Source of the DNA: a virus
Virus record (IMG/VR): IMGVR_UViG_3300050821_004159
Location: 1-46,941 of that record
Length of the DNA: 46,941 bases
Direction: 5' to 3' (one strand)
The notes beneath the pieces are model-generated. The model was not told where the DNA came from. It did no database searches and worked only from the letters and a program-made list of their open reading frames with translations. Position 1 is the first letter of the stretch. Each line of letters starts with the position of its first letter. Below, piece by piece: positions 14,583-44,065 of this stretch. A program made the translations under genes and the position numbers.

Positions 14583-16577
14583 ATGGCTGACGGCCAACAA
14601 TACGACACTTCGCAACTCGACGAGGTGCAACACCCGACGCTGGGCACGCTGAAGTTTCCTCACGCAATGCCGTTCGAGGAGCGGAACCAGCATATCGATG
14701 AAATGCTGAAGGCGAAGCCTGCGAAATCGCCGACACTTCCAAAGACAGACATCAATCTGCCGGGCGGTACGGACCTCTTGAAGAAGAAAGCCGCCGAACT
14801 GGGTGCGCAGCCGGAAACAGAATTTGAAAAGCAGAACAAGTCAGGTTTTTTTGGCAAGGCGGCAGAGGTGGCACGACGCGCTACGCAGGGCGCGGGATTA
14901 CCGCAAAGCACAGAGGCGTCGGATTACAGTCTTTACCCTGGTGCGAAGCACATACTCACGCATCCGGTCGACTCGACCGAGTTGATTGCCGACGCACAAA
15001 AGCAGGGACTGCAGAGCCGTGCAGATAAAAGCGTGGCGGCATGGGACGCCGCAGGGAAAGAACCGAACTTCTGGAAAAAGGCTAGCGATTATTTGAGTTC
15101 GGGCACTTACGCTCTTGAATCTGGAGTTCCATTCCTCGGTCCAGCGGTTGGAGGAATGGCAGATTCCGGCGAGCAGGCCATTAGGGAGAAAGACCCGTGG
15201 GAAGATGCGGGCACTCTCGCCGAAGCGTTGGGCATGGGCGCGACGATGGGACTGGCGAAAAAGCCTACAGAGGTTGGCGGTCCATCATTCGCGACGAAAG
15301 CGGTGCAGGCAGCGCGCGGAACAAAATTGAGTGCCGCCGAGGCTGCAAAGGTACGCCCAGAAGGCGCATTCCAGCCGGCCTTGGCGAACACGCCGGCGGA
15401 CGTACTCGCGCACGCGAAGCAGGAGGGCATTAACCTGACACCTTTTCAGGCGAGTGAAACAAAACTCGCGGGCAAACTGCAAGTTGCCGGCGAGCACGGA
15501 ATCGTGGGAGGCCAAACTCTTGAATCGGCAATGAAGGCGGAGCGCGCAAAGTTTGGCGAAGCGGTCAACAAGTTCAGCGAGCGTGTCGATCCGACTCGCT
15601 TGGGACTGTCTGAGGAGGCGGCCGGGGAATCCATCAAGCAGGCGGCTGAAACAGCGAAGGATGTTTCCCATACGAATGCGTCGAACAACTACAAACAGAT
15701 CGATTACCTAATGAAGGAGAAAGTCGAACCGAAATCTATTTCTGATGCATGGAATAAAGTCCGAGAGGACTTGCCGCTCGGTGCCGAAGAGCAGATTCTT
15801 GCGCAATCGCCGCGCAGCATGAGGGCCGTGGTGGAAGATTTGCTTTCCGGGAAGCCCGAAGGATTCAAGCCGACTTTCGAGCAGTCCATTCAACTGCGGA
15901 AGTTTTTCCGCGACCTGGCGGACACAGAAGGATTGCCGAGTAGAACGGAAGCCCTTTACAAGTCGATGGAAAAAACAGTCGGCAAGGCGATGGACGGCAC
16001 CGCGCGGAAACTTGGTTCGTTCAAAGAGTGGGATGCGGCGAATCAGGGCTGGAAAGAGTACACGGCCCAATATGGCGACAAACAGAGTCCGCTCTACAAA
16101 ATTCTCAATCAGAAAGACCCTGCGAAGATCACCCGCGACCTGATGAATCGAGGTTCGGCTGCGGACATCGAGACACTGACCAAGGAGGGCATGACCTCAG
16201 CGTTGGAACCGCTCCGACGTCAGGTCTTGCAGGACATTGCGCGCAATAAATTCACGGTGGGCCGTGATGGCGTAGGTGGCTATTCTGATTCTTTCCTGCA
16301 TCAACTTTTCGGGCCAACAGGGAAGAAGGAACTGTACTTGAAGGCCGATCTCGCGCGCCGCATGAACTGGGAGCCGAATCCATCGGGAACTGGCGGTGTC
16401 AATCTTGCAGGCGAGCAACTAAGCAAGCCCAGTAAAATCGCGCAACTTTTTGGTGCGGCCAAAATGTCCATGCCGCGGCCTGCGGGGAGTTTCCTGCCAT
16501 CCACCGCGCCGCCGCGCTACAACCTTTCGCCGGGACTCGTCACGGCGGCGATGCTGCACGCAAGGCAAGCGCAGTAG
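14583..16577 (+). CDS. Large ejection-type / internal virion protein
   Basis: A 664-aa mostly helical protein. It begins with the short motif HPTLGTLKFPHAMPFEERNQHIDEML, a pattern (D/H-P-x-G-x-x-x-F-P, then a helix) seen at the N-terminus of many phage injection proteins. Residues ~175-225 include a Gly/Ala-rich hydrophobic stretch (PFLGPAVGGMADSG, GTLAEALGMGATMGLA) able to enter a membrane. The rest is charged helices with a basic, Pro-rich end. ATG follows the preceding TAG directly. With 12552 and 13074 it forms a three-gene set like the ejectosome of short-tailed phages. Confidence 0.65.
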   Translation: MADGQQYDTSQLDEVQHPTLGTLKFPHAMPFEERNQHIDEMLKAKPAKSPTLPKTDINLPGGTDLLKKKAAELGAQPETEFEKQNKSGFFGKAAEVARRATQGAGLPQSTEASDYSLYPGAKHILTHPVDSTELIADAQKQGLQSRADKSVAAWDAAGKEPNFWKKASDYLSSGTYALESGVPFLGPAVGGMADSGEQAIREKDPWEDAGTLAEALGMGATMGLAKKPTEVGGPSFATKAVQAARGTKLSAAEAAKVRPEGAFQPALANTPADVLAHAKQEGINLTPFQASETKLAGKLQVAGEHGIVGGQTLESAMKAERAKFGEAVNKFSERVDPTRLGLSEEAAGESIKQAAETAKDVSHTNASNNYKQIDYLMKEKVEPKSISDAWNKVREDLPLGAEEQILAQSPRSMRAVVEDLLSGKPEGFKPTFEQSIQLRKFFRDLADTEGLPSRTEALYKSMEKTVGKAMDGTARKLGSFKEWDAANQGWKEYTAQYGDKQSPLYKILNQKDPAKITRDLMNRGSAADIETLTKEGMTSALEPLRRQVLQDIARNKFTVGRDGVGGYSDSFLHQLFGPTGKKELYLKADLARRMNWEPNPSGTGGVNLAGEQLSKPSKIAQLFGAAKMSMPRPAGSFLPSTAPPRYNLSPGLVTAAMLHARQAQ

Positions 16578-24759: not shown

Positions 24760-25668
24760 ATGTTGAAGATCATCAAGGCGTCAGAACCAATGCTCGTGGA
24801 ACAGATCGTACTCTGTATTTACAGTCCGCCAGGATTAGGAAAGACAACCCTGGGATTCACCGCAGATAGCCCGCTGGACTTCGACGCCGATAAGGGAGCC
24901 TACCGCGCGAAGAACCGCAAGGATACCGTTCCCGCACCAACGTGGGCCGCGATCGAGACTATGACCGCCGACGAGCTCCGGCCCTACAAAACACTGCTTC
25001 TGGATACCGCTGGCCGTGCCTTGGACCTCTTGGCCATTGACATCATCGCCAAAGACCCCAAGGCAGGTTCCGGGGGAACTTTGAACCTAAAGGGATTCGG
25101 CCAACTCAAAAAGCGCTTTTCCGATTGGCTGAAAATGGTCCGCCTGTTCGGGAAAGATGTGGTGCTCATCTGCCACATGGATGAGCAACGCAGCGGCGAC
25201 GAAGTAATCGAGCGCCTGGACGTGCAAGGCGGAAGCAAGGGGGAAATCTACAAATCCGCCGACGCGATGGGCCGCATCTTCGTCAAGAACAACGGCGAGC
25301 GGTTTATCGACTTCAACCCCCGCGAAAATTCGTTCGGCAAAAATCCATGCGAACTTCCGATCATGCCGATTCCGCTTTCGAGCGAGCGCTGCTTGGCTGA
25401 AATCATCGCCACGATCAAAGACCGCTTGAATGCTTCCGTCGAAGTAGAGAAAGAGGCCGATCGCGAAATGCAGGACTGGGGTATTGCCATCAACGAGTGC
25501 TCCACCGTCGAGGAGTTGAATCAGTTGCTCCCCGAAGTGAAAAAGGCCAGCCCTGCAATCCGCTTCCTTGCGCAGAAACGTGCAAAGGACTTGGGTTTCG
25601 CATTCGACCGGACCGCTGGAATCTACAAGCCGAACGGCGCACCGCAGACCGCTGGCGCGGCAAGGTAG
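24760..25668 (+). CDS. Sak4-like RecA-core ATPase (single-strand annealing recombinase)
   Basis: A 302-aa ATPase of the phage AAA_24/Sak4 type. Walker A is SPPGLGKTT (22-30); Walker B is KTLLLDTAG with D82. The following region LKGFGQLKKRFSDWLKMVRLFGKDVVLICHMDEQRSGD holds sensor residues and matches the family's typical layout. Sak4 proteins bind ssDNA and work with phage or host SSB in annealing and recombination-dependent replication. The next gene is a PD-(D/E)XK nuclease, its natural partner. AAAAGGAGAAG precedes the ATG. Confidence 0.85.
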   Translation: MLKIIKASEPMLVEQIVLCIYSPPGLGKTTLGFTADSPLDFDADKGAYRAKNRKDTVPAPTWAAIETMTADELRPYKTLLLDTAGRALDLLAIDIIAKDPKAGSGGTLNLKGFGQLKKRFSDWLKMVRLFGKDVVLICHMDEQRSGDEVIERLDVQGGSKGEIYKSADAMGRIFVKNNGERFIDFNPRENSFGKNPCELPIMPIPLSSERCLAEIIATIKDRLNASVEVEKEADREMQDWGIAINECSTVEELNQLLPEVKKASPAIRFLAQKRAKDLGFAFDRTAGIYKPNGAPQTAGAAR

Positions 25669-25672
25669 GCCA

Positions 25673-26272
25673 ATGCTCAGCGCCTCCGTATCGAACGTGG
25701 ACCTCTACCGCATGTGGCGCGGCAACGAAGATCTGGACACCGATTGGTTGCTGCGCCGGTTGCGCGGAGAGGACGAACAAACCGAGCAGATGAAGGCCGG
25801 GGAAGCGTTCCACAAAATTCTGGAAGCTCCCAACTTCACCGAGCAGACCGAAGTCACGCAGGGAGGTTTCTGGTTCTCGATTCTCTGCGAGATTCAACTG
25901 GCGCTTCCTCCCGTGCGGGAGCTTCCGATCGAGAAGCGTTACGGCGATTTACTCATCCGTGGGCGCGTGGACGGCTTATCCGGCAAGACCGTGACCGACT
26001 ACAAGACCACAGCGCAATTCGACGCTGACCGCTTGATGGAAGGCTACCAGTGGCGCTTCTACCTCGACATGCTGGACTGCGACACCTTCACCTGGAAAGT
26101 GTTCGTGCTCTCCCAGTACGGGAAGCCGGGACACTACGACGTTACGCAAGCCCACGAACTCACGCAGAAACGCTATCCGGGCTTGCATGGGGATTGCGAA
26201 CGGCTGGCCGCTGACTACCTGCAATTCACGCGGTCGGTCGGATTCGTAAAAGAAATAGTCGCAGCGGACTGA
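25673..26272 (+). CDS. PD-(D/E)XK recombination nuclease
   Basis: A 199-aa exonuclease-type protein. GEAFHKILE (43-51, H47) is motif I of RecB/Cas4-like nucleases. GRVDGLSGKTVTDYKTT provides D100, D109 and K111, the D-(D/E)xK active site. YQWRFYLDML follows as the usual QxxxY-type helix. There are no Fe-S cysteines, unlike Cas4. Downstream of Sak4 it likely generates the ssDNA used for annealing. ATG 25673 is preceded by an AGGTAGG site. Confidence 0.85.
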   Translation: MLSASVSNVDLYRMWRGNEDLDTDWLLRRLRGEDEQTEQMKAGEAFHKILEAPNFTEQTEVTQGGFWFSILCEIQLALPPVRELPIEKRYGDLLIRGRVDGLSGKTVTDYKTTAQFDADRLMEGYQWRFYLDMLDCDTFTWKVFVLSQYGKPGHYDVTQAHELTQKRYPGLHGDCERLAADYLQFTRSVGFVKEIVAAD

Positions 26273-26345
26273 TTTTCGTTAACTCGCCGGGGAGTTGGGG
26301 CAGGCTCGCACCCTTCCTCAACTCTTCGGCAGAAAGGAAGCGCAG

Positions 26346-26528
26346 ATGGAAGGCAGATACGACAATCACCCGCTCGTCGCTCCGCACCTGGAGCATAGGG
26401 CGATATTGCATGAGCGCATGGACGACCTACAAAAGATTCTGGAATGCGTACACGCGCTGCTGACTTGTCCGTGCGCGAATTGCCAAGGGGAACGATCTAT
26501 GGAGGTAGCTCATGCCCAGGCCCGATGA
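26346..26528 (+). CDS. Small His/Cys mini-protein
   Basis: A 60-aa protein with HLEHRAILHERMDD then a CPCANC cluster near the C-terminus. AAAGGAAG lies upstream of ATG 26346. The 72 bases before it contain only a short AACTC/GAGTT hairpin. The following gene starts within its end. Unknown. Confidence 0.55.
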   Translation: MEGRYDNHPLVAPHLEHRAILHERMDDLQKILECVHALLTCPCANCQGERSMEVAHAQAR

Positions 26529-26655
26529 CTGGTCGGATGTTCCAAGCGCGACCGAGTTGCTTAACGCGGAGAGGTGGCGGCAGAGATTCGCGATCGCTCT
26601 TTTTCTGCTGGCCTTCGCGGTGCTCTGTGCGGCGCTGGTGAGGGGATTGAATTGA
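26512..26655 (+). CDS. 47-aa membrane peptide
   Basis: A short gene with a strong GGAGG 6 nt before ATG 26512. The peptide has a polar N-terminus (PRPDDWSDVPSATELLNAERWRQR) and one membrane helix (FAIALFLLAFAVLCAALV). TGA 26653-26655 overlaps the TTG start of the next gene. It could be a small membrane toxin or anchor. Unknown. Confidence 0.6.
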   Translation: MPRPDDWSDVPSATELLNAERWRQRFAIALFLLAFAVLCAALVRGLN

Positions 26656-26948
26656 ATACCTGTATTCATCCAGACCGCCTGCTATTCGATTTCACCGTCC
26701 CCTACATGGGCGAAGTGAAAGTCTGCCTGGAATGCCGCCGAGAGCTTGCGCTGCGGACGGTGGAGAAACCGCTTGGACTTATCCCGGCAGATTGCGGACG
26801 ACTCGGTTATCGCTGCTCACGGTGTGGCGGCGAGTACACCAGTACGGACGCGATGACGTGCTCCTGCAAAGGTCGGATTGAAGAGTGTCAGCGGTCGGCG
26901 AAGTTGTTTTTGGAATGGCTGAAGTATCGAGAGTTGACGGCACGGTAG
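26652..26948 (+). CDS. Multi-CxxC zinc-ribbon protein
   Basis: A 98-aa protein with several metal knuckles: CLECRREL, YRCSRCGGEY, then CSCKG. The layout suggests a zinc ribbon plus an extra CxC. TTG start overlaps the previous TGA (TTGA), with GAGGGG about 6 nt upstream. It belongs to the dense zinc-protein group. Function unknown. Confidence 0.65.
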   Translation: MNTCIHPDRLLFDFTVPYMGEVKVCLECRRELALRTVEKPLGLIPADCGRLGYRCSRCGGEYTSTDAMTCSCKGRIEECQRSAKLFLEWLKYRELTAR

Positions 26949-26990
26949 CAAGGTCGGATCTGGTCGGTAAGCCAAAAAGGGGGATGTCCG

Positions 26991-27461
26991 GTGGCAGTAA
27001 TACGTAAGGGTATGCGTGTACGCAGCATCTATGAGCCTGACCGTGTGTTTGTTGTGGACCGCAGCTTGCTACCAGGGCGCGTGTTCCACGAAAAAGGGGC
27101 TACGCGCTGGTACACGAAGAGGGAGTTGGTTCCCGCAGGGAAGCAATTTAAGGCACCTAAAAAAGCCGCCAAGCCTGTTACTCGTGCCAAGCTGCGAGCG
27201 GTGCGGAATGAGCGTTCCTCAGCGTTCCTCAGCACTCCGCCGCTGTCCCCTAAGCGCCCGTATCAGCCAAAACTGACCTGCACCGAATGCGGCGTGGAAT
27301 TTACGCGCGGATCGAAGGCGCGAAAGTTGAAGCCGGGTGAGCGCCCGTTTTGCACAACCGCGCACCGCGTGAAATTTTGGAAGCGGCAGCAAGTTCCGAT
27401 TGTTATCCACTTTTCCACACCGAAATCCACAGATAAAAACTTGCAAAAGGGAGCCGCATGA
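26991..27461 (+). CDS. Basic protein with C-terminal zinc motif
   Basis: A 156-aa basic protein. Residues 1-50 resemble a small beta barrel (RKGMRVRSIYEPDRVFVVDRSLLPGRVFHEKGATRWYTKREL), as in KOW/SH3-like nucleic-acid binders. A Lys/Arg/Pro linker is followed by CTECGVEFTRGSKARKLKPGERPFCTTAHRVKFWKR, a zinc knuckle with C-x2-C and C..H. GTG start with AGGGGGA upstream. A nucleic-acid-binding role is likely by charge. A 10-bp tandem duplication (27211-27230) lies in the linker. Confidence 0.65.
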   Translation: MAVIRKGMRVRSIYEPDRVFVVDRSLLPGRVFHEKGATRWYTKRELVPAGKQFKAPKKAAKPVTRAKLRAVRNERSSAFLSTPPLSPKRPYQPKLTCTECGVEFTRGSKARKLKPGERPFCTTAHRVKFWKRQQVPIVIHFSTPKSTDKNLQKGAA

Positions 27462-27799
27462 GTACAGCCCCTACGAGTCACGGAAGATCGTCTAGACGTG
27501 TGGCGGCGCAAAGCGGACAAAAACCGGAGTTTTCCGCAAATCCACAGGACTCATCATCACAAGCTTTAAATACTATTCAATTCTTAAAACCTAAGAGTAA
27601 TTCTGTTTCTTGCAGTGATGAGCGCGGTGGAAAAGTGGAAAAGCGGCCGTGCAACCGCCAGGTATTCGCAAGCGAAGCGGTCGCGTTCAACTCCGCGCGG
27701 ATGCTGCGCGGCATAAAAATCGCGGTGAAGCCTGAACGCTGTGCAAAGTGTGGCTTGATGCATTTATCCCGAGACAACGGAGGGCCGGACCAGCCATGA
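27458..27799 (+). CDS. Low-complexity protein with zinc knuckle
   Basis: A 113-aa protein, Ser/Gln/Asn-rich and probably unstructured for ~60 residues, ending with a RMLRGIKIAVKPERCAKCGLMH segment (CxxC plus His). ATGA-coupled on both sides. The base composition of its first half is more AT-rich than the neighbours. Unknown. Confidence 0.55.
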   Translation: MSTAPTSHGRSSRRVAAQSGQKPEFSANPQDSSSQALNTIQFLKPKSNSVSCSDERGGKVEKRPCNRQVFASEAVAFNSARMLRGIKIAVKPERCAKCGLMHLSRDNGGPDQP

Positions 27800-28140
27800 A
27801 GAAAAATCTTCCCTACTGCAAGCATCACCCGAACGTGCGAATGAAACTCTCCATCGAGCCTATTCCGTTCCGCGATAAAGGCAATCCAAATCTGAATCGC
27901 CAAGTTCTGCGCTGCCCGGTAGTGGATAAATCCACAAAGCTGCAGTGTCCGTGGATGGAGCTGGTGCTGGACAGCGAGCGCATAGAAACCGCATTTTGCA
28001 AAACCTGCAAGAAGCCTTTGACGCTCGAAGATCATCACCGCTCAGAATGCGGAACCTGCCGCTATGCACGGCAGAAGAAAAGCATCGGGTTGCACGCGCG
28101 GTATCTGACGAAACTGGCGAGAAAGCGAGTCGCGGCTTGA
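27796..28140 (+). CDS. Double zinc-ribbon protein
   Basis: A 114-aa protein with eight or more potential ligands: YCKHHP, LRCPVVDKSTKLQCPWM, FCKTCKKPL and CGTCRYARQ, ending in a basic tail. Two zinc ribbons side by side suggest nucleic-acid or protein binding. ATGA-coupled to the previous gene. Unknown family. Confidence 0.6.
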   Translation: MKKNLPYCKHHPNVRMKLSIEPIPFRDKGNPNLNRQVLRCPVVDKSTKLQCPWMELVLDSERIETAFCKTCKKPLTLEDHHRSECGTCRYARQKKSIGLHARYLTKLARKRVAA

Positions 28141-28373
28141 GCGTAATTCCTGAAAAGCGCGAAGACCTCGTGGCGATGGGTTACGTGTACACAGGCGACG
28201 GAAAGTGCCGTGATTGCCATGTGCGGGTGGAGTGGTGGATCAAGCCAAACGGAAAGCGAGTGCCACTTACCGTTCACGAAGAGGGTAGCGGGTTGATGCA
28301 GGAGCACACCGGGAGAGTTGGATTTTTCAGGAAGCTGCACTTTCTGCATTGCCCGGAAAGGAAGGAGCGATGA
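28137..28373 (+). CDS. CxxC mini-protein of a common phage type
   Basis: A 78-aa protein with the layout GKCRDCHVRVEWWIKPNGKRVPLTVHEE...HFLHCPER. The CRxC...(W)..TPxGKxxPL...HxxxCP pattern is one I recognise as widespread in phages with unknown role. TTG start overlaps the previous TGA. Continues the zinc series. Confidence 0.65.
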   Translation: MSVIPEKREDLVAMGYVYTGDGKCRDCHVRVEWWIKPNGKRVPLTVHEEGSGLMQEHTGRVGFFRKLHFLHCPERKER

Positions 28374-28624
28374 ATACCGCGAAAGAAGTGCGCGAGGAAA
28401 AGCAGGGCCAGCTTGGCCGGCGAGAAGTAATCCTTCGCCTACTGAAAGAAGCAGGCCCGCAAGGCCGCACCAACCTGGAACTGAAAGACGTGTGCCTGCG
28501 CGTGGGCGCAAGAATCTTTGAACTGAGAGAGCGCTATGAGATCGAAACCAAACCGGAGAAACGGGGAGTCTATCGCTTTATTTTTCGCGGCGAAAAAGAG
28601 AGTCAGAGGAGATTATTCGCGTGA
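28370..28624 (+). CDS. Small winged-helix/HTH protein
   Basis: An 84-aa protein. RREVILRLLKEAGPQGRTNLELKDVCLRVGARIFELRERYEIETKPEKRGVYRF (~24-77) fits a winged helix: helix 1, helix 2, recognition helix around RVGARIFELRE, then a beta wing. Such HTH proteins of phage early regions (HTH_39-like) often regulate replication or early genes. AAGGAG precedes the ATG closely, and ATGA coupling is present. Confidence 0.65.
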   Translation: MNTAKEVREEKQGQLGRREVILRLLKEAGPQGRTNLELKDVCLRVGARIFELRERYEIETKPEKRGVYRFIFRGEKESQRRLFA

Positions 28625-28869
28625 CGCTCGGGAGGCGCTTCGAATTGTTGACGGCCCATGCCGCGCGCAACATCGCAGCACAGCGCAGAACGGAATTACT
28701 GGACTCCGTTCAGGATTGGCTGGAGTCCGATGACTGCCCGGCAGAGAGTATCGAAGAAATGTTCTACGCGCTGGCGGGAGTGGCGGCAATTTGCATGAGC
28801 GAGTATTGCGAAGAAGTGCAGGCGAGGATCGGCGGAGAAATCCTTGAGCGGGAGATGAAGCAGGGATGA
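28621..28869 (+). CDS. Small helical early protein
   Basis: An 82-aa helical protein (RRFELLTAHAARNIAAQRRTELLDSVQDWLES, then EEMFYALAGVAAICMSEYCEEVQARIGGEI). GTG start with GAGGAG 9 nt upstream, overlapping the previous stop. Its own TGA overlaps the next ATG. Unknown. Confidence 0.6.
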   Translation: MTLGRRFELLTAHAARNIAAQRRTELLDSVQDWLESDDCPAESIEEMFYALAGVAAICMSEYCEEVQARIGGEILEREMKQG

Positions 28870-28973
28870 TGACCGAACGTCTGCGCACCCGTCACATTCT
28901 AGTGGTGTGCGGGATCTGTTTCTTTTGGTGCTGGCAGTTTGCGAAGGCTTTGGCGGCGAGCATTGGACAGTGA
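28866..28973 (+). CDS. 35-aa membrane peptide
   Basis: ATG 28866 overlaps the upstream TGA. The peptide has a basic start (MMTERLRTRH) and one hydrophobic, aromatic and Cys-rich helix (ILVVCGICFFWCWQFA). Small size makes the call tentative. Coupling and a positive-inside pattern support it. Confidence 0.45.
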   Translation: MMTERLRTRHILVVCGICFFWCWQFAKALAASIGQ

Positions 28974-29171
28974 AAGGAGGATTGCAGCAAACAGGACGGG
29001 GAGCGGCATTCAGAGGGGAGTGAGAAATATCTGATCACTCCAGCGAGCGGAGATGGTACCCGACAGAAAATCGGGGCAACTGCCGGCGCTAGTACATCCT
29101 GAGGGGCCGTCACGCGGGGACGAGGCAAGCCCAGCACAGTTTTTGTAGAGGTTAAATCTGAAAGGAGCAAT

Positions 29172-29378
29172 GTGGACATAAACAACATCTTCACCTATCA
29201 CTCGCCGCGACCGGAGCAACTTCCGAAGTATGAAGCAATCCGCGCGAAGGCGAAGGAGTTGGGCCAAGTAATCGTGGACAACACGCCGACCTGCGCAGAC
29301 CAAACCGCTGCGATTCGCTTGCTGCGTGAAGCGGTGATGACGGCGAATGCCGCTATCGCACTAGATGGAAAACTCTGA
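29172..29378 (+). CDS. acb2: Acb2/Tad1-hairpin-type cyclic-nucleotide sponge (anti-CBASS candidate)
   Basis: A 68-aa all-helical protein. IFTYHSPRPEQLPKYEAIRAKAKELG, then TPTCADQTAAIRLLREAVMTANAAIA, closely follows the pattern I know for the Acb2/Tad1 helical hairpin: FTYHxP..Q..Y..IR..A...A near the N-terminus and L..A.M.ANA.IA near the C-terminus. Proteins of this type form hexamers that sequester cyclic di- and trinucleotides and so block CBASS abortive immunity. Y9 and K26 lie where ligand-contacting Tyr and Lys are expected. GTG 29172 has AAAGGAG 4 nt upstream; the overlapping ATG 29170 meets TAA after three codons. A 198-bp gap with no convincing gene lies upstream. Confidence 0.8.
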   Translation: MDINNIFTYHSPRPEQLPKYEAIRAKAKELGQVIVDNTPTCADQTAAIRLLREAVMTANAAIALDGKL

Positions 29379-29388
29379 GGCAGATCGC

Positions 29389-29577
29389 GTGAGTGGCCCT
29401 CTCTGCGGTGCCCGCTGGCTAGAAAGCACTGAAGTGTTCTGTCAGCGGGAGCCGCATACATCGGGAGAATGCTTTTCCAAGATACAGATCATTTATGAAA
29501 ACGGGATTGTAGGGAAGGCGGAGATTACTTGGAAAGATTTCAGGGAGGAACGACTTGAGCGAGCACCTAGCATTTGA
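29389..29577 (+). CDS. Small Cys-containing early protein
   Basis: A 62-aa protein (from GTG 29389) beginning MSGPLCGARWLESTEVFCQREPHTSGECFSK, with three Cys and a His, followed by two beta strands. GAGG (29377-29380) overlaps the stop of the Acb2-like gene and lies 8 nt before the GTG. ATG 29365 would give 70 aa but has no ribosome site. It overlaps the RNA ligase start by 23 bp. Direct linkage to the Acb2-like gene makes it worth testing as a second counter-defence factor. Confidence 0.6.
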   Translation: MSGPLCGARWLESTEVFCQREPHTSGECFSKIQIIYENGIVGKAEITWKDFREERLERAPSI

Positions 29578-30493
29578 GCATCTGCATAGCTACCCGAAAG
29601 TGTACGCGATTGGTCATGGCGCGATTGCGGAACTGTTCGACGGTGACGTGCTGGTGGAAGAGAAAGTGGACGGCAGCCAGTTCTCGTTCGGTGTGTTCAA
29701 GGGCCAAATTTCCATGCGCTCACGCGGCGCGACGGTAATCCCCGGCTCCGCTGATTCCGGCATGTTCGCGGCGGCAATCAAGTCCGTCGAGGAGATGAAG
29801 GACCGCCTACATGATGGCTGGACCTATCGCTGTGAGTACCTGCAAAAGCCAAAGCACAACGTCCTGTGCTATGGCCGCGTCCCGTTGCGCAACCTGATTC
29901 TTTTCGACATCAACACAGGCGATGAGGTCTATCTGTCACGCGCTGAGAAGGTAGCTGAGGCCGAGCGCATCGGCTTGGAATACGTTCCCGTGCTGCACTT
30001 CGGGCCAGTGAGTTCCCCAGAAAAGCTCTACGCGCTTCTACAAAGAGAGAGCGTTCTTGGCGGCAAAACAGAAGGAATTGTCGTCAAAAACTACTCCCGG
30101 TTTGGCAAAGACAAGAAAGTGCTGATGGGGAAGTACGTCAGCGAAGAGTTCAAGGAGACGCACGGCAAGGAATGGAAGGCCAGCAATCCAACGATGGCCG
30201 ACGTAGTCGAGCGAATCATCGCCACGCTCCGCACCGATGCGCGTTGGGAGAAAGCAGTATTCCGGCTCCGCGATCTGGGCCAGCTCGAAAACTCCCCGCG
30301 TGACATCGGCAACCTCATCAAAGAAGTGCAGCGCGACGTGCGCGAGGAAGAGACGGAATTTATTGAGCAGAAGTTGCGGGAATGGGCGTTGCCGAGAATC
30401 CTGCGAGCATCCTCTGCGGGAATTCCTGAGTGGTACAAAAAGCGCCTGCTAGAGAGTGCCTTTCCGGCTGCGGAGACAACGGTCGAGCCGTGA
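29555..30493 (+). CDS. Rnl2-type RNA ligase
   Basis: A 312-aa nucleotidyltransferase that seals RNA nicks. Motif I is EEKVDGSQ with K37 as the AMP-accepting lysine; R57 lies in motif Ia. The RCEYLQKPKHN segment (E94) is motif III-like, TEGIVVKNY (E173, K178) is motif IV and VLMGKYV (K193) is motif V. The C-terminal ~110 residues are helical, as in T4 Rnl2. Phage RNA ligases repair tRNAs cut by host anticodon nucleases, and a phage tRNA-His is present. TTG start with GGGAGGAA upstream. Confidence 0.88.
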   Translation: MSEHLAFEHLHSYPKVYAIGHGAIAELFDGDVLVEEKVDGSQFSFGVFKGQISMRSRGATVIPGSADSGMFAAAIKSVEEMKDRLHDGWTYRCEYLQKPKHNVLCYGRVPLRNLILFDINTGDEVYLSRAEKVAEAERIGLEYVPVLHFGPVSSPEKLYALLQRESVLGGKTEGIVVKNYSRFGKDKKVLMGKYVSEEFKETHGKEWKASNPTMADVVERIIATLRTDARWEKAVFRLRDLGQLENSPRDIGNLIKEVQRDVREEETEFIEQKLREWALPRILRASSAGIPEWYKKRLLESAFPAAETTVEP

Positions 30494-30909
30494 AACCCGA
30501 CTACATACTCCGCCAAGAAATAGCCGCAAACAAAAAGCTTCTCCGTGAGCGCAAGAGGCAACGCATCGGTCTGCCCTCCAGCAAGCCGACAACGCACTGG
30601 AAGGACGGGCATGAATACCTAGTAGGAGTGTTAGCGCACACAAGACGGCGCCTGGAAATCTTCCGCAACGCAGGGGGAGAAGCGACCTGGTTTGATGAGT
30701 CAGATCCCAGTACCGTCGAGGAAATTAAGCCGGCAATGTGCCAGGGGTGCGCGGAAACGCACTTAGTCGGATGGCTCGAGGGGGAATGGTCCCACCCAAA
30801 GTCGAAGGGTGAGCGACGCTGCGATTGCGCGGAGCATAGTTTGTGGGTCTGCCGTACTTGGCACGTCGTCTCAGGTCATGGGCGAGTGCTTCATTGGAGC
30901 CAGAGATGA
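30490..30909 (+). CDS. Zinc-binding protein downstream of RNA ligase
   Basis: A 139-aa protein. The N-terminal ~60 residues are a basic helix pair (ILRQEIAANKKLLRERKRQRIG, EYLVGVLAHTRRRLEIFRNAGG). The second half has CQGCAETH, CDCAEHSLWVC and a final GHGRVLHW, suggesting one or two zinc sites. GTG start overlaps the ligase stop (GTGA), so it may assist RNA repair. The family is not recognised. Confidence 0.65.
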   Translation: MKPDYILRQEIAANKKLLRERKRQRIGLPSSKPTTHWKDGHEYLVGVLAHTRRRLEIFRNAGGEATWFDESDPSTVEEIKPAMCQGCAETHLVGWLEGEWSHPKSKGERRCDCAEHSLWVCRTWHVVSGHGRVLHWSQR

Positions 30910-31325
30910 AGGCGGGTAAGCAATTCGGCGTGCCGGGAGCTGAGAACGTAAATTTCCGGCACGGAAACAGCGTTGGCTACAAGGTCACCGGGACGTACCA
31001 CAGTTGGCGAAGCATGATCCAGCGCTGCACGAATCCAAAGCGGCACAACTACAAATGGTACGGCGCCCGAGGCGTTACAGTCTGTGAACGATGGCGAATG
31101 TCTTTTGATGCGTTCCTGGCCGACATGGGCGATAGGCCGAAAGGGACCACGCTGGACCGATTCCCAAATAAGGAAGGCAACTACGAGCCCGGCAACTGCC
31201 GATGGGCGTCGCAGCGGGAGCAGATGCGTAATTCTCGAAACTTTCGAGGGATTGGGCCGCGATGGAGAGACGGCTCTTTTCGCACACCTTGGAAGATCAG
31301 GCGCGGGGAGGAACTTTCTATATGA
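30906..31325 (+). CDS. HNH-related phage protein (YGARGVTVCERW type)
   Basis: A 139-aa protein. TYHSWRSMIQRCTNPKRHNYKWYGARGVTVCERW, then FLADMGDRPKGTTLDRFPNKEGNYEPGNCRWA, is a pattern found in many phage genomes and often annotated as HNH-like. The LDR..N..GNYEPGNCRWAS block mirrors the HNH core (D-x-I-x-P...N-L-x-x-x-C) with altered ligands. Catalytic competence is unclear. ATGA overlap with 30490-30909. Its stop overlaps a small frame inside the repeated leader. Confidence 0.65.
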   Translation: MKAGKQFGVPGAENVNFRHGNSVGYKVTGTYHSWRSMIQRCTNPKRHNYKWYGARGVTVCERWRMSFDAFLADMGDRPKGTTLDRFPNKEGNYEPGNCRWASQREQMRNSRNFRGIGPRWRDGSFRTPWKIRRGEELSI

Positions 31326-31335
31326 GGCAGCTTTT

Positions 31336-31398
31336 CACAACCACCGTCCGACCGGAGCGAGCGATGGCATACCGCGCCAAGGAGGCTGAGCATGGCTG
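31336..31398 (+). repeat. 63-bp duplicated leader, copy 1, with mini-ORF
   Basis: Matches 34356-34418 at 59 of 63 positions, with the first 40 bases identical. It contains GGAG then ATG 31364, opening an 11-codon frame MAYRAKEAEHG whose TGA (31396-31398) overlaps the ATG of the next gene (31392). The AAGGAG in the mini-ORF is the ribosome site of that gene. In this copy the frame extends upstream to ATG 31322 (25 codons, overlapping the previous stop), so the peptide could be longer. Confidence 0.85.
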
Positions 31399-31628
31399 AA
31401 ATCGAAGAGAATGGCGAGCATCCGTGCTTCGTTGGCAAAGCTCCATGCGGGTGCTACCGATTTGCGATGGTTAACGATGAGCACACACAAGCGGAGGATT
31501 TTTCAGAGATGGCTCGCATGGTGAAAGCTGGATGGAAGATTGAGATTAAGCCCGTCAAATTTGTGTGGGATGGAGGTCTGAATTTCAACTGCGGCCATAT
31601 TCAGGCCAAAGCGTGCGGTAAGCCATGA
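31392..31628 (+). CDS. Small Cys-rich protein under duplicated leader
   Basis: A 78-aa protein with APCGCYRFAMVND, a helix (EDFSEMARMVKAGWKIEIKPV) and a final FNCGHIQAKACG. The PCGC...C.H layout with a middle helix is common among phage mini-proteins of unknown function. Its start lies in the 63-bp duplicated leader and should be coupled to the mini-ORF. Confidence 0.65.
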   Translation: MAEIEENGEHPCFVGKAPCGCYRFAMVNDEHTQAEDFSEMARMVKAGWKIEIKPVKFVWDGGLNFNCGHIQAKACGKP

Positions 31629-31679
31629 TCGACCCGTTTGAGCGGTATTTGTAGGGAAAAGAGGGAGGAAAAGTTTCCA

Positions 31680-32621
31680 ATGACGCAGACGAAGCTGGAA
31701 GTGGGGCAGGAAGTTTGGGTGCGGGGCAAGCTGCTATACGTTTACGGGGACGGAGTGTTGCAAGTGAAATTTGAGCGAGCGGACCCGATGAATAATCAGA
31801 TCGCGTTCATTGAGTCGAAAGACGTGCTCACAGGCAGCGCGGGAGCCTCTTCTGAGCCGCCGAGCGTCATCCATGTTGCACTTCATTTTGACGCCGACCA
31901 AAAGGGCTGGCCGCGAGTCGCTGGCGTGTATTCAACTTACGAGGCCGCCGAAAAGCGCGTGGAAGAACTTGGCAGCGGGGCAACACAATCGCTTCGCCTC
32001 AATGAGCCGGTGCGATTTACATCTGAGCGCGGAGGCAGCGCGGGAGCAGCGAGCGCAGAGCGGGAGAGTGATAGGGGAGCCCCAAATCTAAAGCGCCCAA
32101 CGTGCTCACTCCACAATCGACTGATGGACAACATTGCGAGTGGCGGAGATGACTCAGCGGAAGTTTGGCAGTGCAAGGAGTGCGCACCAAGGCAGGCTCA
32201 AATTGAGCGGCAAATAGACGCACTAATGGAAAAGTTGCGCCCTGTCGCAGGCAGCGCAGGCTTGAGAGAGCGACTGGAAGGCCATTCCTTTATCTGGAAC
32301 GACAACTATAAAGCGAGATGTCGCTGCGGTTGGCGTGACGATGCGCCGATGGGCTATACGAATGCGTGGGAAGCGTGGGTTGAGCACGTTGCCGCCCTCG
32401 CACGCGAAACTGCGCCTGCGGGTTCGCGTGAGCTGAAGGAGCGCATACAAATAATTATCGAGATGCTGCAACGTATCCTGCCAAAGGCACTTACAGAAGA
32501 ACTCGGCATATCCGCCGAGGATACTTACGAAGGGTCGGGATATAAAAGCATTCTTGGCGTTCTTTTACCGCAAATAGAAGTCGTGTTGAGAGAGGAGCTT
32601 GCCACCAATGAGCGCAAGTGA
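31680..32621 (+). CDS. Mosaic multi-domain protein with two zinc motifs
   Basis: A 313-aa protein that looks assembled from mini-protein modules joined by AGSAG/GGSAG-type linkers. Residues 1-55 are a small beta barrel (LEVGQEVWVRGKLLYVYGDGVLQVKF). The stretch 60-115 is a beta-alpha module (VIHVALHFDADQKGWPRVAGVYSTYEAAEKRVEELG). At 135-190 is a zinc knuckle (CSLHNRLMDN...WQCKECAPRQ), and at 205-245 a second one (ARCRCGWRDDAPMGYTNAWEAWVEHV). The end is helical. GGGAGGAAAAG precedes ATG 31680. Function unknown. Confidence 0.65.
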   Translation: MTQTKLEVGQEVWVRGKLLYVYGDGVLQVKFERADPMNNQIAFIESKDVLTGSAGASSEPPSVIHVALHFDADQKGWPRVAGVYSTYEAAEKRVEELGSGATQSLRLNEPVRFTSERGGSAGAASAERESDRGAPNLKRPTCSLHNRLMDNIASGGDDSAEVWQCKECAPRQAQIERQIDALMEKLRPVAGSAGLRERLEGHSFIWNDNYKARCRCGWRDDAPMGYTNAWEAWVEHVAALARETAPAGSRELKERIQIIIEMLQRILPKALTEELGISAEDTYEGSGYKSILGVLLPQIEVVLREELATNERK

Positions 32622-36108: not shown

Positions 36109-36642
36109 GTGATCGACCTGAACGGTGAGCAGGCGGCGATCCGTGCCGGCTACAGCGCCAAGAGCGCACGGTCTAAGGCGTCTCAGCTATTAACAAAAGT
36201 AAACGTGCAAGCCCGAATCGCTGAACTCACAAAGGCGAGAGCGGACGGCCTTGGGCTGACTGCCGAGAAAGTTCTTCGAGAACTCACGCTGATGGGCTTC
36301 TCGAACATGTTGGATTATGTTAGGCCGCAGAAAGATGGGTACGCGTACGTCGACCTCTCGAAGCTGACGCGAGAGCAAGCTGCGGCGATTCAGGAAATAA
36401 CGACAGAAAGCTTCGTGGCGGATGACCCTGAGTCGGAAGACGGCGACGGCCAAAAGATTGTAACGAAAGTGAAATTCAAGCTGGCCGACAAGCGCGGCAG
36501 CTTGGAGTTGCTGGGGAAATACCTGAAGTTGTTTCTGGATCGTACCGAAGTCACTGGGCCGGGTGGTGGTCCGGTGCCAATTCAAATAGTATCCGCGATT
36601 CCACGACCGAAACGTGATAAGTCCGCTACTCAAGGTAGTTGA
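36109..36642 (+). CDS. terS: Terminase small subunit (N-terminus out of frame, A10 tract)
   Basis: The DNA-recognition subunit of the packaging motor. IDLNGEQAAIRAGYSAKSARSKASQLLTKVNVQARIAEL is the Terminase_2 signature. The family normally continues upstream as (R)F-x-x-EY-L-x-D, and the frame upstream of GTG 36109 indeed reads ELRDERFAQEY, but it has no ATG, GTG or TTG. ATG 36062 plus the A10 tract (36065-36074) would join it only by a -1 shift, giving MKKKKELRDERFAQEY. An ATG at 36086 with AAGGA upstream encodes an 8-aa peptide whose TGA overlaps GTG 36109. The conventional start 36109 is given (177 aa). Confidence 0.85.
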   Translation: MIDLNGEQAAIRAGYSAKSARSKASQLLTKVNVQARIAELTKARADGLGLTAEKVLRELTLMGFSNMLDYVRPQKDGYAYVDLSKLTREQAAAIQEITTESFVADDPESEDGDGQKIVTKVKFKLADKRGSLELLGKYLKLFLDRTEVTGPGGGPVPIQIVSAIPRPKRDKSATQGS

Positions 36643-38119
36643 GACTTACACGCCGTTTCCCCGGCAAGCAGAGTTTCATCGCAGCCCAGCGAAGTACCGG
36701 CTCTTTGGCGGGGCTGCTGGCCCAGGTAAAACCGCTGCATTGGTCTGGGAAGCGGTCATGCAGAATCTGGAAGTAGAACGCAGCACCGTTCTGCTTCTGC
36801 GCCGGACCTTGGGGCAGCTCGAAGATTCTCTGCTGAAAGAGTTTCACAAGAGCGTGCCGTGGCGCGAAATTGGCGCGCGGTACAACGACCAGAAGCACCG
36901 TGTGATGTGGCCGAATGGGTCCGTGCTGCGCTTTGGATATTGCGAAGCGGAAAACGATGTCTACCAATATCAGGGCGCGGAGTTTCTGTTCATCGGGCTT
37001 GATGAACTGACGCACTTCACGCTGAAGCAGTGGCAGTTCTTGACTTCCCGTAATCGGCATCCAGGCTGCTTTGCATCAATGGCCGGGGCAACAAACCCCG
37101 GCAACATCGGGCACGCCTGGGTGAATGCGTTGTGGGGCTGCGATGGCACTGGCAAGAAACCAGCTCCGGGCATGGATGAACCGGAGAAGTATGACCCGAA
37201 CGATTACGATTTTATCCGCGCGCTGATCGCCGACAACCCGATTTACGCGAACGACAAGAATTACCTGAAGACGCTGGACGGACTGGGCAAGGCGTTGCGT
37301 ACCGCGATGCTCGAGGGATTGTGGGATCAGTTCGCGGGACAGTACTTCGACATTTTCAATCCGAATCGGCACATTGGACGCTGGCAGGGCAGTGAACTGC
37401 TTGCGAAGGTCATCAACAAAGATGGCCAGCAAGTCGGCGAAAAGAAATACAAGATTGAATCGTGGTGGCCGAGATGGGTTTCGCTTGATTGGGGCAGACA
37501 GCATCCTTCGGCGGTCTATTGGCACACGACGGCACCGGATGGCAGGCACATAACATATCGGGAGTGGGTGCAGCCTGGCTTGACTCCGCGAATGTTAGGG
37601 ACGGGAATCGTTGAGCGAAGCATTGACAGCGAGGGACGCCCGGAAACAATTCAGCAGTTTTTTATCAGCCCGGACGCAAACGCGGACCGTACGGGTGAGT
37701 CCACTATCTTTGAGCAGATCCGAGAACAGACTTCTACTGGTAATCGACTCCCGAATCCAGCCGAGGCAAGTGATGATCGGATTGGAGGGTGGCAGCTTCT
37801 CTACACGCTTCTTGAGGCTGATGAATGGCTCATCGCAGAGAACTGCAAGGATTTAATTGGCTGCCTTCCGCGGCTGATTCACGACGAGAAAAAAGTTGAG
37901 GATGTGAAGAAGGTCGACGGAGACGATCCTGCGGACTCCGCGCGCTACGGCTTGTATTCACGGCTTGGAACCGTACAGGCTCCCGTAGAAGTACGCCGCG
38001 AACAGGCAATCGCTAAGGCCGCGAACCCGACCATGCGCGTGATTCTGGCGGAAAAGTTTGACGAAGAAGAGAAGAAGAGAAGCCGCCCTGTACCGCTGAT
38101 GCGGCGGCGCCGGCATTAA
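36614..38119 (+). CDS. terL: Terminase large subunit
   Basis: The ATPase-nuclease that packages DNA, 501 aa. Walker A is GAAGPGKT (33-40), Walker B is FLFIGLDE (124-131, D130/E131) and the coupling motif is GATNPGN (158-164). The RNase-H-like nuclease domain begins at VSLDWGRQHPSAV (~290), with its first Asp, and ISPDANADRTGES holds a second acidic position. GTG start, overlapping the small subunit by 29 bp, which is typical. This length is normal for the family. Confidence 0.92.
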   Translation: MISPLLKVVETYTPFPRQAEFHRSPAKYRLFGGAAGPGKTAALVWEAVMQNLEVERSTVLLLRRTLGQLEDSLLKEFHKSVPWREIGARYNDQKHRVMWPNGSVLRFGYCEAENDVYQYQGAEFLFIGLDELTHFTLKQWQFLTSRNRHPGCFASMAGATNPGNIGHAWVNALWGCDGTGKKPAPGMDEPEKYDPNDYDFIRALIADNPIYANDKNYLKTLDGLGKALRTAMLEGLWDQFAGQYFDIFNPNRHIGRWQGSELLAKVINKDGQQVGEKKYKIESWWPRWVSLDWGRQHPSAVYWHTTAPDGRHITYREWVQPGLTPRMLGTGIVERSIDSEGRPETIQQFFISPDANADRTGESTIFEQIREQTSTGNRLPNPAEASDDRIGGWQLLYTLLEADEWLIAENCKDLIGCLPRLIHDEKKVEDVKKVDGDDPADSARYGLYSRLGTVQAPVEVRREQAIAKAANPTMRVILAEKFDEEEKKRSRPVPLMRRRRH

Positions 38120-38140: not shown

Positions 38141-39883
38141 ATGAAGAATTATCGCAAAGCACTGATTAGCCTTCTTGTGGCTTACGTGCTGATCCTGGCG
38201 GGATGGGCGCCGCCTGTTCTCGCCCAGCAGGGAACTGCCGCAAGCTACGTTGCTGGCGAGCGAAACGTAGCTTGGTACAACTTCGGCAAGGGCTCGGTGC
38301 AGGGCGCGTACATCACTTCGGGTAACACCGCGACTGGCTCGCAGACGATTACGGTGTGCCCCGCGTTCCGGCCTCTCCCTGATGGCCGTGTCGTGAACCT
38401 GTTTGGCGGTCCTGGGCTGGCTTCGGTGCCGATCACCGTTGATGCGCAGAGCTCCACAAACGTCGAGACGGTCACTCCTACCGCTGTCGCACTGACAACG
38501 CCTCAACAGTTGCAGGGTTCCAACCAGGCGGTCTCTTGCGCGCAGATCACCGCATCTTTTTCTTTTACTCACGCGCCTTCGCAGAACACCCACCAAGTAA
38601 TCTCCGGTGATGGCGGAGTCCAAGAAGCGATCAATGATGCGGCCCCGGCAGGCGGCGGTGTCGTAACCGTTGGAGCGGATTCCGCGGGCTTTGTAACGAA
38701 CGCCATTCTTGCCGCGGCGGTTCCTTATGCGAACGTGAGCATCGCGGACAAACGCGCGGCGTTGCAATATTGGAATCCCGCTCCGACAACCACGACCACG
38801 ATTACCGCGCCCACAACGCTGACCGCGACAACCGTAGGCTTCGGCTTGAACGGCGCGAACACGACAGGCGGGACGTACACGGGTGCCTCTACCTATCACG
38901 TCGCGGTAGCTTGCGTTGACGTGATGGGGAATGAAAGCCAGCCATCTGCGGACTTTAGCGGGCTTACCGCCGGGACGGGCACAACCAATCAAATCGGTAT
39001 CGCGGCCCCTGCGGCGCAGACGGGCTGCGTTGGGTGGGTGCCGTACATCTCGCTAGCTGGCGGTTCCTATGCGCTTGCCTATCGCGTGCCGGTAGCGACC
39101 TACTCTAACGGTGTCCCCACGGCGAACGGTGTCTGCGCTCTTACGCAGATTGAAACTATTACGGCCGCCTGCAAGATCACAAATTCCACTTACAACCAGA
39201 CAGGCGTTGCGGCGATCGTTTCGGCTCTGACGGTCAACACCGCGCGCATCTGGGTAGGGGTGGGCGGGACCTCTTCGACGTCCGACGTTGTAGGGAACTC
39301 GTCCGCGCGCACGACTTACGCTTACGCTCCGGGTGCCCGGCTCGCCATCGGAAACGTACAAACCTACAACGCCTTCGCTGCGGCGACGGCGCCGGCCACG
39401 ACCGTTCCCGCCATTGTCGGAACAATCCACCTGCCGCCCGGCTACATGAACTTTGTTGGCCGCTCAATCCGTATTTGCGGAACGATTCAGGGCGGCGGCG
39501 CCAGCACGGCAACCGTCGAGAACGTAGCGTTCTACTGGGACGCGGACGGCTCCAATGCAACCGGTGCTGGAGTCCTGCTGAGCGGACCAACGCTCACGTC
39601 AACGTTGACAGGCACGCCTGCCATTCAATTCTGCCAAACGCTCACCACTACCGTCTCTGGCTCTGGTGCGACTGCCGGATCAATTCTATCGACCCAAGGA
39701 CACATCACGATTGCAAACGGCGCTGGCGGAACCGCTGGCGTAACCACCATGACGCAGCCCGGTAGCGCGGTAGCCTCGCTGAACTTGGCACAGGAAGCGC
39801 GCATCGACATCGACTACCTGCACACCACGGGTACGGACGGAACCGAAACACTGAAGAACCTTACGGTCGAAGCGATCAACTAG
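38141..39883 (+). CDS. Exported 580-aa beta-rich protein in the packaging operon
   Basis: A large Thr/Ala/Gly-rich beta protein. The N-terminus is a Sec signal peptide (MKNYRKALISLLVAYVLILAGWAPPVLA-Q). The body has beta strands with a few Cys, and low-complexity Thr repeats at ~215-235 (TTTTTITAPTTLTATT). GGAGGAAATG precedes the ATG. An exported protein between terminase and portal genes is very unusual. It might coat the host surface, be a virion decoration protein, or be a secreted adhesin. No domain is recognised with confidence. Confidence 0.65.
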   Translation: MKNYRKALISLLVAYVLILAGWAPPVLAQQGTAASYVAGERNVAWYNFGKGSVQGAYITSGNTATGSQTITVCPAFRPLPDGRVVNLFGGPGLASVPITVDAQSSTNVETVTPTAVALTTPQQLQGSNQAVSCAQITASFSFTHAPSQNTHQVISGDGGVQEAINDAAPAGGGVVTVGADSAGFVTNAILAAAVPYANVSIADKRAALQYWNPAPTTTTTITAPTTLTATTVGFGLNGANTTGGTYTGASTYHVAVACVDVMGNESQPSADFSGLTAGTGTTNQIGIAAPAAQTGCVGWVPYISLAGGSYALAYRVPVATYSNGVPTANGVCALTQIETITAACKITNSTYNQTGVAAIVSALTVNTARIWVGVGGTSSTSDVVGNSSARTTYAYAPGARLAIGNVQTYNAFAAATAPATTVPAIVGTIHLPPGYMNFVGRSIRICGTIQGGGASTATVENVAFYWDADGSNATGAGVLLSGPTLTSTLTGTPAIQFCQTLTTTVSGSGATAGSILSTQGHITIANGAGGTAGVTTMTQPGSAVASLNLAQEARIDIDYLHTTGTDGTETLKNLTVEAIN

Positions 39884-41608: not shown

Positions 41609-44065
41609 ATGCCGATCAAAGAACTTCTCGCGAGCATGGCGCAAGGTGTCGCTGACAAGCTAGGAGGGGAAAAGAAACAGCAACCTGGCTCACAGGACGG
41701 TAACGTACCTTCGCCTGCAGGACTGAGCGAAGCGCAGAAAAAGTATGGGCCGAATTTCGAGAAGCTGAAGGATCTCCGCCCGGATCTGGTAGGCGCCCTC
41801 CAATCTCTTGTGATGGAGCGGCGCCTCGCGGACATCTGGGCGCAGCGCCGCAAAATCCGCCGCATCCGCATGGCGCGGGATTTCTGGCAAGGTAATCAGT
41901 ATTCGAGTTATGACGGCGATGCGTACAGTTCACCCGCTGGCTTGCGGGCGAACATGGACTTTGACGACCCGGACAGCGAAGAAACCGGGCCGCGCTATCA
42001 GTTTGTAACGAACTTTTTCCAGGCGTACGGGCTGGGTTTTTGCGCGGTGATGAGCCAGGACGTTCCGCACCCGGAGTTTTATCCGGCTTCGCGGGAGCGG
42101 CAGGAAGACATCACCTTCTCGAAGGTCGTTGATGACGTCGTTGACGAAATAGAGCGCAACAACAAGCCCAAGAGCCTGCTGACCAATATCGCCAATCGGT
42201 TCTGGACCGACGGGACCATGGGCGGGTATGTCCGCTACGTAGTCGACGGCGAACGATTCGGCTACAAAACACTGCCGGTGCAGGGCACGCAAGAAGGGAA
42301 TCTCGGCGGCGTGCCGATGACGCTGCCAGTCGACCAGGGCGAAGAGAAAATACCGAACGGGCAGGAAGTCATTACCATCGTAGGCGGGCTGGAACTTGCT
42401 GTCCCGAACTATGGCGATGACTTCGAAGACTGCGAATACCTGCAGTGGAATTGCGAACCGGCAATCACGAAGCTGAAGGCCGCGTTTCCGCATGCTGCGG
42501 ATGGAATCGAAGGCGATTCCGGGCTTTCCGCCGATCAGGTGTATGAACGCATCGCACGCCTGGGCGTGAAGCAGAACGTTCCGTATTTGGTGCCTGGCGA
42601 TGCGCTGAGCATTCTGGCGACGTTCAGCCGGACCTGGCTGCGCAAGTGGGCTTTTGAAGGGATCAGCGACAAAGGACTGAAGAAAGAGCTTCAGGAGCTA
42701 TTTCCCGACGGTTGTTATGTGGCTTTCGCGGGCTTGCAGTACTGCGAATCACGTAACGAGTCGATGGCCGATCACTGGCGGATTAAAAACGCCATGCCGG
42801 GAGACGGGCAGAGCCGCCCAGCGGTTGGTGGCGCACTGATCGACGTGCAGGATCGTTACAACGTCCTGGCGAACATTCAGGCCGAGACGTATGAGTACGG
42901 CATTCCGCCGATTTATTACAGCGCGAGCCGGCAGAACTCGGACGCGATAGGCAACACGGTTTCAGAACCAGCGGTACACATTCCCATTCAGCCGCGGCCG
43001 GGAATGGCGATTGCGGACGACTTCTTTCAGCCCGATCCGGCAAAAGAAGCTGCGACTCTTGCGCAGACCATGCAGGAGTTGATGGGTCCGGTAGCGCAGT
43101 TTCTCTGCGGCTTGTTTCCCGCGATCTTCGGCGGCGAAATGCAGGACGTAAAAACGGCCAAGGGCTACCAGATGGCCCGCGACCAGGCGATGGGCCGCTT
43201 AGGGCTGATCTGGCGCGCGGTGCAGGAAGTTTATTTTGAGCTGATGTTTCTGGGCGTTAAGTGCTTCAAGGAAAACCGCCCGGAAGACGTGGAAGTGCCG
43301 TTCGCCGGCGAGACAGATCAGGAAAAAGCAAAGTGGATTCGCAAGGGCGACCTACAGGGCAACATCATGCTCAAGGGCGAGCCCGACGCGGACATGCCGC
43401 GGATGAAGGGCGAGCAGCGAGCGGTGCTGCAGCAGTTGTTTGGGCTGGCGGATAATCCGCTCTTGCAGGAAGTCTTCACCGAGCCAGCCAACCTTGGATT
43501 CATCAAGGAAGTTTTCGGCATTACGGAACTGGAAATTCCGGGCGACGATTCGCGTGTGAAGCAGATGCGCGAGACGCAGATGCTTTTGCAGAGCGGACCG
43601 TTTCAGCCGCCACCGCAACCGACCATGCAACCCGGTCCTGACGGGCTGCCGGTTGAAGGGATGGTGCAGCCGCCACCGCAACCGACGATTGGAGTGGGAA
43701 AGTACGACCGTCACGAGGTAGAGCTGGCCGAAGGGCTGCGCTACTGGAGTAGTAACGCAGGACAGGATGAAGCGCGGTCGAATCCGCAAGGCTGGGCAAA
43801 CTTCACCTTGCACCTGGACATGCACGCGCAGGCGATTGCGGAAAAAGCGGCGCAGCAGCAGCCGAAGATTCCGCCGAAACCGCCAAGCATGAGCGTGCAG
43901 ATTGACAAGCTGCCGCCGGGGCCGATGGCACAAGCACTGGCGATGGATAACATCCAAGCGGACCCGAACGAATTGGCCGCGAACAAAGAGCAGCAGCGGC
44001 AAGACAAAGCGAATGAGTTGCAGGCGAGGCTCAGCGCGAAGGGGAGTGGCGGAAATGTCGGGTGA
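41609..44065 (+). CDS. Portal protein
   Basis: A 818-aa protein between terminase and scaffold/capsid genes, the position and size of a P22-like portal. Helical wing segments (ERRLADIWAQRRKIRRIRMARDFWQGNQY) are followed by a stem/crown region with long helices (EAATLAQTMQELMGPVAQFLCGLFPAIFGGEMQDVKTAKGYQMARDQAMGRLGLIW). The C-terminus is Pro/Gln-rich, with two copies of a QPPPQPT motif, then a coiled-coil-like QQQRQDKANELQARL tail. No Shine-Dalgarno site of note is seen. The call is by context plus architecture. Confidence 0.8.
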   Translation: MPIKELLASMAQGVADKLGGEKKQQPGSQDGNVPSPAGLSEAQKKYGPNFEKLKDLRPDLVGALQSLVMERRLADIWAQRRKIRRIRMARDFWQGNQYSSYDGDAYSSPAGLRANMDFDDPDSEETGPRYQFVTNFFQAYGLGFCAVMSQDVPHPEFYPASRERQEDITFSKVVDDVVDEIERNNKPKSLLTNIANRFWTDGTMGGYVRYVVDGERFGYKTLPVQGTQEGNLGGVPMTLPVDQGEEKIPNGQEVITIVGGLELAVPNYGDDFEDCEYLQWNCEPAITKLKAAFPHAADGIEGDSGLSADQVYERIARLGVKQNVPYLVPGDALSILATFSRTWLRKWAFEGISDKGLKKELQELFPDGCYVAFAGLQYCESRNESMADHWRIKNAMPGDGQSRPAVGGALIDVQDRYNVLANIQAETYEYGIPPIYYSASRQNSDAIGNTVSEPAVHIPIQPRPGMAIADDFFQPDPAKEAATLAQTMQELMGPVAQFLCGLFPAIFGGEMQDVKTAKGYQMARDQAMGRLGLIWRAVQEVYFELMFLGVKCFKENRPEDVEVPFAGETDQEKAKWIRKGDLQGNIMLKGEPDADMPRMKGEQRAVLQQLFGLADNPLLQEVFTEPANLGFIKEVFGITELEIPGDDSRVKQMRETQMLLQSGPFQPPPQPTMQPGPDGLPVEGMVQPPPQPTIGVGKYDRHEVELAEGLRYWSSNAGQDEARSNPQGWANFTLHLDMHAQAIAEKAAQQQPKIPPKPPSMSVQIDKLPPGPMAQALAMDNIQADPNELAANKEQQRQDKANELQARLSAKGSGGNVG

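Follow-up and report, generated by a model that had tools for sequence, protein, structure and literature searches.

A compact hairpin-only protein of the Acb2/Tad1 family in a phage genome, a probable nucleotide sponge

The window analysed here, a whole virus record of 46,941 bases, carries on its plus strand at 29172..29378 a gene for a 68-aa, hairpin-only protein of the Acb2/Tad1 hairpin family, as indicated by its match to the domain model PF24729, its membership in PHROG 1454, its AlphaFold2 model and the purifying selection acting on it. The product (VDINNIFTYHSPRPEQLPKYEAIRAKAKELGQVIVDNTPTCADQTAAIRLLREAVMTANAAIALDGKL, the translation of ORF 29172-29378 with the first residue read as Met) is probably a sponge that works like the Acb2 proteins of other phages, a role for which we infer an oligomer, ligand binding and an anti-CBASS effect.

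The ORF is a real gene. Its start codon is GTG, and a ribosome-binding site AAAGGAG, as read from the sequence, lies 4 nt before it (29161..29167, plus strand). Boxes of the AGGAG type are also found 5' of the starts in several relatives, and the GTG is aligned with the ATG or GTG starts of close relatives. In comparison with the eight closest relatives, pN is 0.05-0.11 and pS 0.55-0.90 per site, and the gene is thus under strong purifying selection among close relatives. A short frame with a GTG start might be suspected to have arisen by chance or to be what is left of a decayed gene, but we give this almost no credence, as it is refuted by the PF24729 match, by 154 relatives in IMG/VR, by the intact frame and start, and by a pN far below pS. 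The motifs named in the preliminary description are present in the product, namely FTYHSP (residues 7-12), Y20..IR24..A27..LG and EAVMTANAAIA (53-63), and they are not a matter of chance, since eight residues (F7, P12, D43, R52, T57, A58, N59 and A63) do not vary in 72 distinct sequences, that is the query and its relatives.

The assignment to the Acb2/Tad1 family, which the preliminary description had proposed from such motifs, is borne out by profile searches. PF24729, the Acb2/Tad1 hairpin domain, matches the protein with 47.1 bits (E 2.8e-12), well above the curated gathering cut-off of 27 bits, and 57 of the 58 profile positions (1-57) are covered. The same model recognises T4 Acb2 (Vs.4) at 71.4 bits. 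Tad1 was described from Bacillus phage SBSphiJ7 (PMC12043709), in whose genome the model matches a single protein; this 142-aa protein, with 35.2 bits, we take as Tad1. Neither NCBIfam nor PADLOC-DB held a model matching the 68-aa protein, and single-sequence or profile searches found none of the Acb2 or Tad1 chains in the PDB. The kind of hairpin is already known, as UniProt names relatives "Acb2/Tad1 hairpin domain-containing", and the novelty is therefore limited to a further member in an apparently uncharacterised clade. In the literature, which was covered incompletely, we found no experimental report on this clade.

The clade was found in no fewer than 154 places among virus records by an IMG/VR scan, of which the best 80 of the 154 relatives were kept. 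In GenBank, 88 phage records contain a relative, each with less than 60% identity. The best of these, at 58%, is from Tunturiibacter phage Tunturi_1 (gp101), which together with the proteins of Mycobacterium phage Phabba and Lactococcus phage 1706 makes up the closest named relatives (47-58% identity). The proteins of Phabba and of Lactococcus phage 1706 have the same predicted fold as the query. Some named relatives are longer (106-149 aa), and in the GenBank records viewed they are described as hypothetical or unknown.

The preliminary description had expected a helical hairpin as in Acb2 and Tad1, and this is the fold that AlphaFold2 predicts. From an input alignment of 38 sequences it gave a model with a mean pLDDT of 94.7, with helices at residues 3-6, 14-37 and 42-63 and no strands. 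The predicted monomer would thus have the architecture of Acb2, a short N-terminal helix followed by a helical hairpin. When 350,542 PDB chains were searched with Foldseek, chains of T4 Acb2 (7uq2) occupied ranks 1, 2 and 3, with probabilities of 0.84 to 0.51 and E-values of 0.55 to 2.5, which are not significant alone, as is expected for a short helical hairpin. VIA-align likewise placed 7uq2 first (Z 6.7, 65 residues, 4.0 A), with a narrow lead over unrelated helical proteins at Z 6.3 and 6.2. For a helical hairpin such a PDB match proves little alone, but it agrees with the Pfam result. Among the predicted viral proteins of BFVD, the top-ranking matches bear the name of the Acb2/Tad1 hairpin domain, the best with an E-value of 1.8e-4.

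Within the family, the layout of the protein is that of Acb2. In Tad1 a beta-sheet domain at the N-terminus precedes the hairpin (PMC12043709), and the hairpin shared through PF24729 is C-terminal (SBSphiJ7; Clostridium prophage, 7uaw). The query lacks such a domain: only about 23 open codons precede the start of the 68-aa ORF, and 74 of the 80 relatives are hairpin-only without an extension, with C-termini at most five residues from the query's end. The alternative that the protein is a Tad1-like anti-Thoeris sponge, which would bind mainly gcADPR and CBASS signals only secondarily, appears improbable to us. The SBSphiJ7 protein does contain the PF24729 hairpin, the local profile match of the query family is slightly better to Tad1 (P 0.008) than to T4 Acb2 (P 0.016), and Asn59 corresponds to an Asn in SBSphiJ7 Tad1 (MWLN) that is not found in T4 Acb2 (MWAC). 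The missing beta domain, the short open stretch before the start and the strandless model speak against it, however, as does the VIA-align score, which for Tad1 is only Z 4.1 and hence below that of T4 Acb2.

The query also differs from T4 Acb2. T4 Acb2 shares with it the PF24729 domain, the short N-terminal helix and hairpin, the Y8 and K23 positions (Tyr and Arg here) and the hexamer alanines, but it is 88 aa long, whereas the query has 68 aa and a shorter loop between the helices. T4 Acb2 belongs to PHROG 717, which gathers the homologues of Vs.4 (PMC10097602), and matches PHROG 1454 weakly (7e-4); the query, in contrast, matches only PHROG 1454 (5e-17) and 31113, both without known function. 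As it lies outside PHROG 717, which groups proteins by sequence and does not define a function, we prefer the term Acb2-like and place the protein in the PF24729 hairpin family, and do not count it as a proven Acb2. In profile-profile comparison the query family reaches an hhalign probability of 2.8% against the T4-type Acb2 set and 5.1% against the Tad1 set, while the T4-type Acb2 and Tad1 alignments reach 67% with each other. With such weak matches to both, the query family is most aptly treated as a third clade within PF24729.

The sponge function of T4 Acb2 has been demonstrated (PMC10097602). According to Jenson et al., it stacks on cGAMP via Y8 and F82, makes polar contacts through Y8, H11, K23 and R79, and needs L29, A66, A73 and A77 for its hexamer (PMC10097602). 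In the hhalign register, which was extended gap-free from residue 61, the contact residues correspond to Tyr9 (Y8), Pro12 (H11), Arg24 (K23), Ala60 (R79) and Ala63 (F82) of the query, and the hexamer residues to Leu30 (L29), Ala47 (A66), Ala54 (A73) and Ala58 (A77). Tyr9 (codon at 29196..29198, plus strand) is Tyr in 94% of the family and Arg24 (29241..29243, plus strand), at the place of the phosphate-binding cation K23, is Arg in 97%, with Y9, R24 and R49 all in the range of 94-99% over the 72 sequences. On the side of assembly, Ala58 (29343..29345, plus strand), aligned with the interface residue Ala77, is invariant, A47 is conserved to 97%, and position 30 is occupied by L or F and position 54 by A, C or S across the family. 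The residues that replace T4 contacts are likewise conserved, with A60, A63 and P12 at 99-100%.

By this register, half of the pocket thus seems to be kept together with the assembly surface, and the other half is changed throughout the family. Since several cGAMP contacts are replaced family-wide, ligand binding is something that we infer from the aligned residues. The loss of F82 does not exclude binding, since Acb2 of Pseudomonas phage PaP2 (8h2j) by alignment also has Ala at this position. This protein is likewise a short hairpin, with Tyr and Lys at the positions of Tyr9 and Arg24, but it keeps an Arg at the R79 position and is not matched by the query-family profile. The conserved residues R49, R52, D43 and N59 could belong to an altered site.

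If the protein works like Acb2, it would be made during infection and form an oligomer, probably a hexamer, through its helical hairpins. Pockets between the subunits, with Tyr9 and Arg24 as putative binding residues, would take up the host's nucleotide second messengers, which may be cyclic di- or trinucleotides made by CBASS or by systems like it, and the effectors would thereby not be switched on. The gene, its family, its conservation, the predicted monomer fold and the retained Y8, K23 and interface-alanine positions are in favour of this sponge role, and purifying selection on a gene that moves from phage to phage on its own is expected of an accessory gene. The low hhalign probabilities, that is the weak direct similarity to the experimentally tested proteins, and the family-wide change of the T4 contacts H11, R79 and F82 count against it. 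A further, though uninformative, point on this side is that an SMODS nucleotidyltransferase was detected in only one of the 11 genome assemblies to which relative-bearing contigs belong; these assemblies and the phage hosts are uncertain.

The same changed residues permit two other readings. It is possible, and we propose this only tentatively, that the clade is a third, widespread group of sponges with a rewired pocket, in which the Arg at the R79 position was lost and the near-invariant Arg49, Arg52 and Asn59 were gained, and that it sequesters other signals than T4 Acb2 and Tad1 do, for example mainly cyclic trinucleotides or an undescribed signal. Or the hairpin may be conserved because it serves a different function, for instance in oligomerisation or in an interaction with the virion or a host protein, in a clade that no longer binds signalling nucleotides. 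The family-wide loss of the R79 and F82 contacts would fit the latter, as would the C-terminal extensions of some relatives, including capsid-protein-like segments. We consider it unlikely, however, given the 94-97% conservation of the two residues that align with the nucleotide-binding Y8 and K23, and given the further conserved polar residues D43, R49, R52 and N59.

Downstream of the hairpin gene, the ORFs are those that the preliminary description reported, a 70-aa Cys ORF, for which no relatives were detectable, and then an RNA ligase (29555-30493; PF09414 with E 3.6e-15, PHROG 548) with a KVDG motif. An HNH endonuclease gene follows downstream of the ligase (30843-31325; PHROG 3377, E 2.7e-37). 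The suggestion that this stretch may be a counter-defence island found no support. When the 14 neighbouring genes (24760 to 32621) were compared at E 1e-4 with the flanks of the 80 hairpin relatives, no recurring neighbour was found save for a single weak match, at 34% identity, that involves the ORF at 30430, a result that is strongest for close and long loci, as many of the 80 are cut by contig ends. The RNA ligase has four relatives in viral contigs (35-66% identity), none of which (0/4) has a hairpin gene within up to 5 kb on each side, and PADLOC-DB gave no match among seven other ORFs tested. The hairpin gene acts like a solitary accessory gene that is mobile. The RNA ligase may serve independently as a repair enzyme, and nothing links it to the hairpin.

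Elsewhere in the window, recognisable terminase genes lie at 36109-38119, and the large ORFs 13074-16577, 38141-39883 and 41609-44065 had no match in the libraries scanned (Pfam and/or PHROGs). This points to a group of phages that has been sampled little and perhaps infects Acidobacteriota.

Some relatives are found in other contexts or carry additional parts. Three huge-phage contigs of 275, 235 and 350 kb encode a 302-aa fusion (L048:4992-5900, L223:3001-3909 and L224:3001-3906), in which some 235 residues after the hairpin contain two segments like PHROG 544 and 2522. Both of these are major head proteins and are matched at E about 1e-7; the L223 and L224 fusions are 83% identical over 302 aa, and the AlphaFold model of the capsid-like fusion has a pLDDT of 33. 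According to a review, phiKZ injects its own Tad1 into the host cell (PMC13282480), which makes a virion-borne sponge thinkable for the huge-phage fusion, and the fusion is possibly such a sponge or a capsid mimic. Two further hairpin proteins, of 191 aa (L055) and 153 aa (L069), are extended at the C-terminus by 120 and 81 residues, in which no Pfam match was found. At another locus (L012:4745-5865), the hairpin gene is flanked by one gene for a small membrane protein and another whose product is peptidase-like, which by eye have the look of lysis genes.

Nucleotide sponges are one of the main phage strategies for overcoming CBASS and Thoeris. They in turn set off the Panoptes defence (PMC12657218). 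A single hairpin gene in a phage is in itself expected; the clade described here gives small proteins that are open to testing, and with its compact 68 aa and altered pocket it would illustrate the evolution of ligand choice on a single fold.
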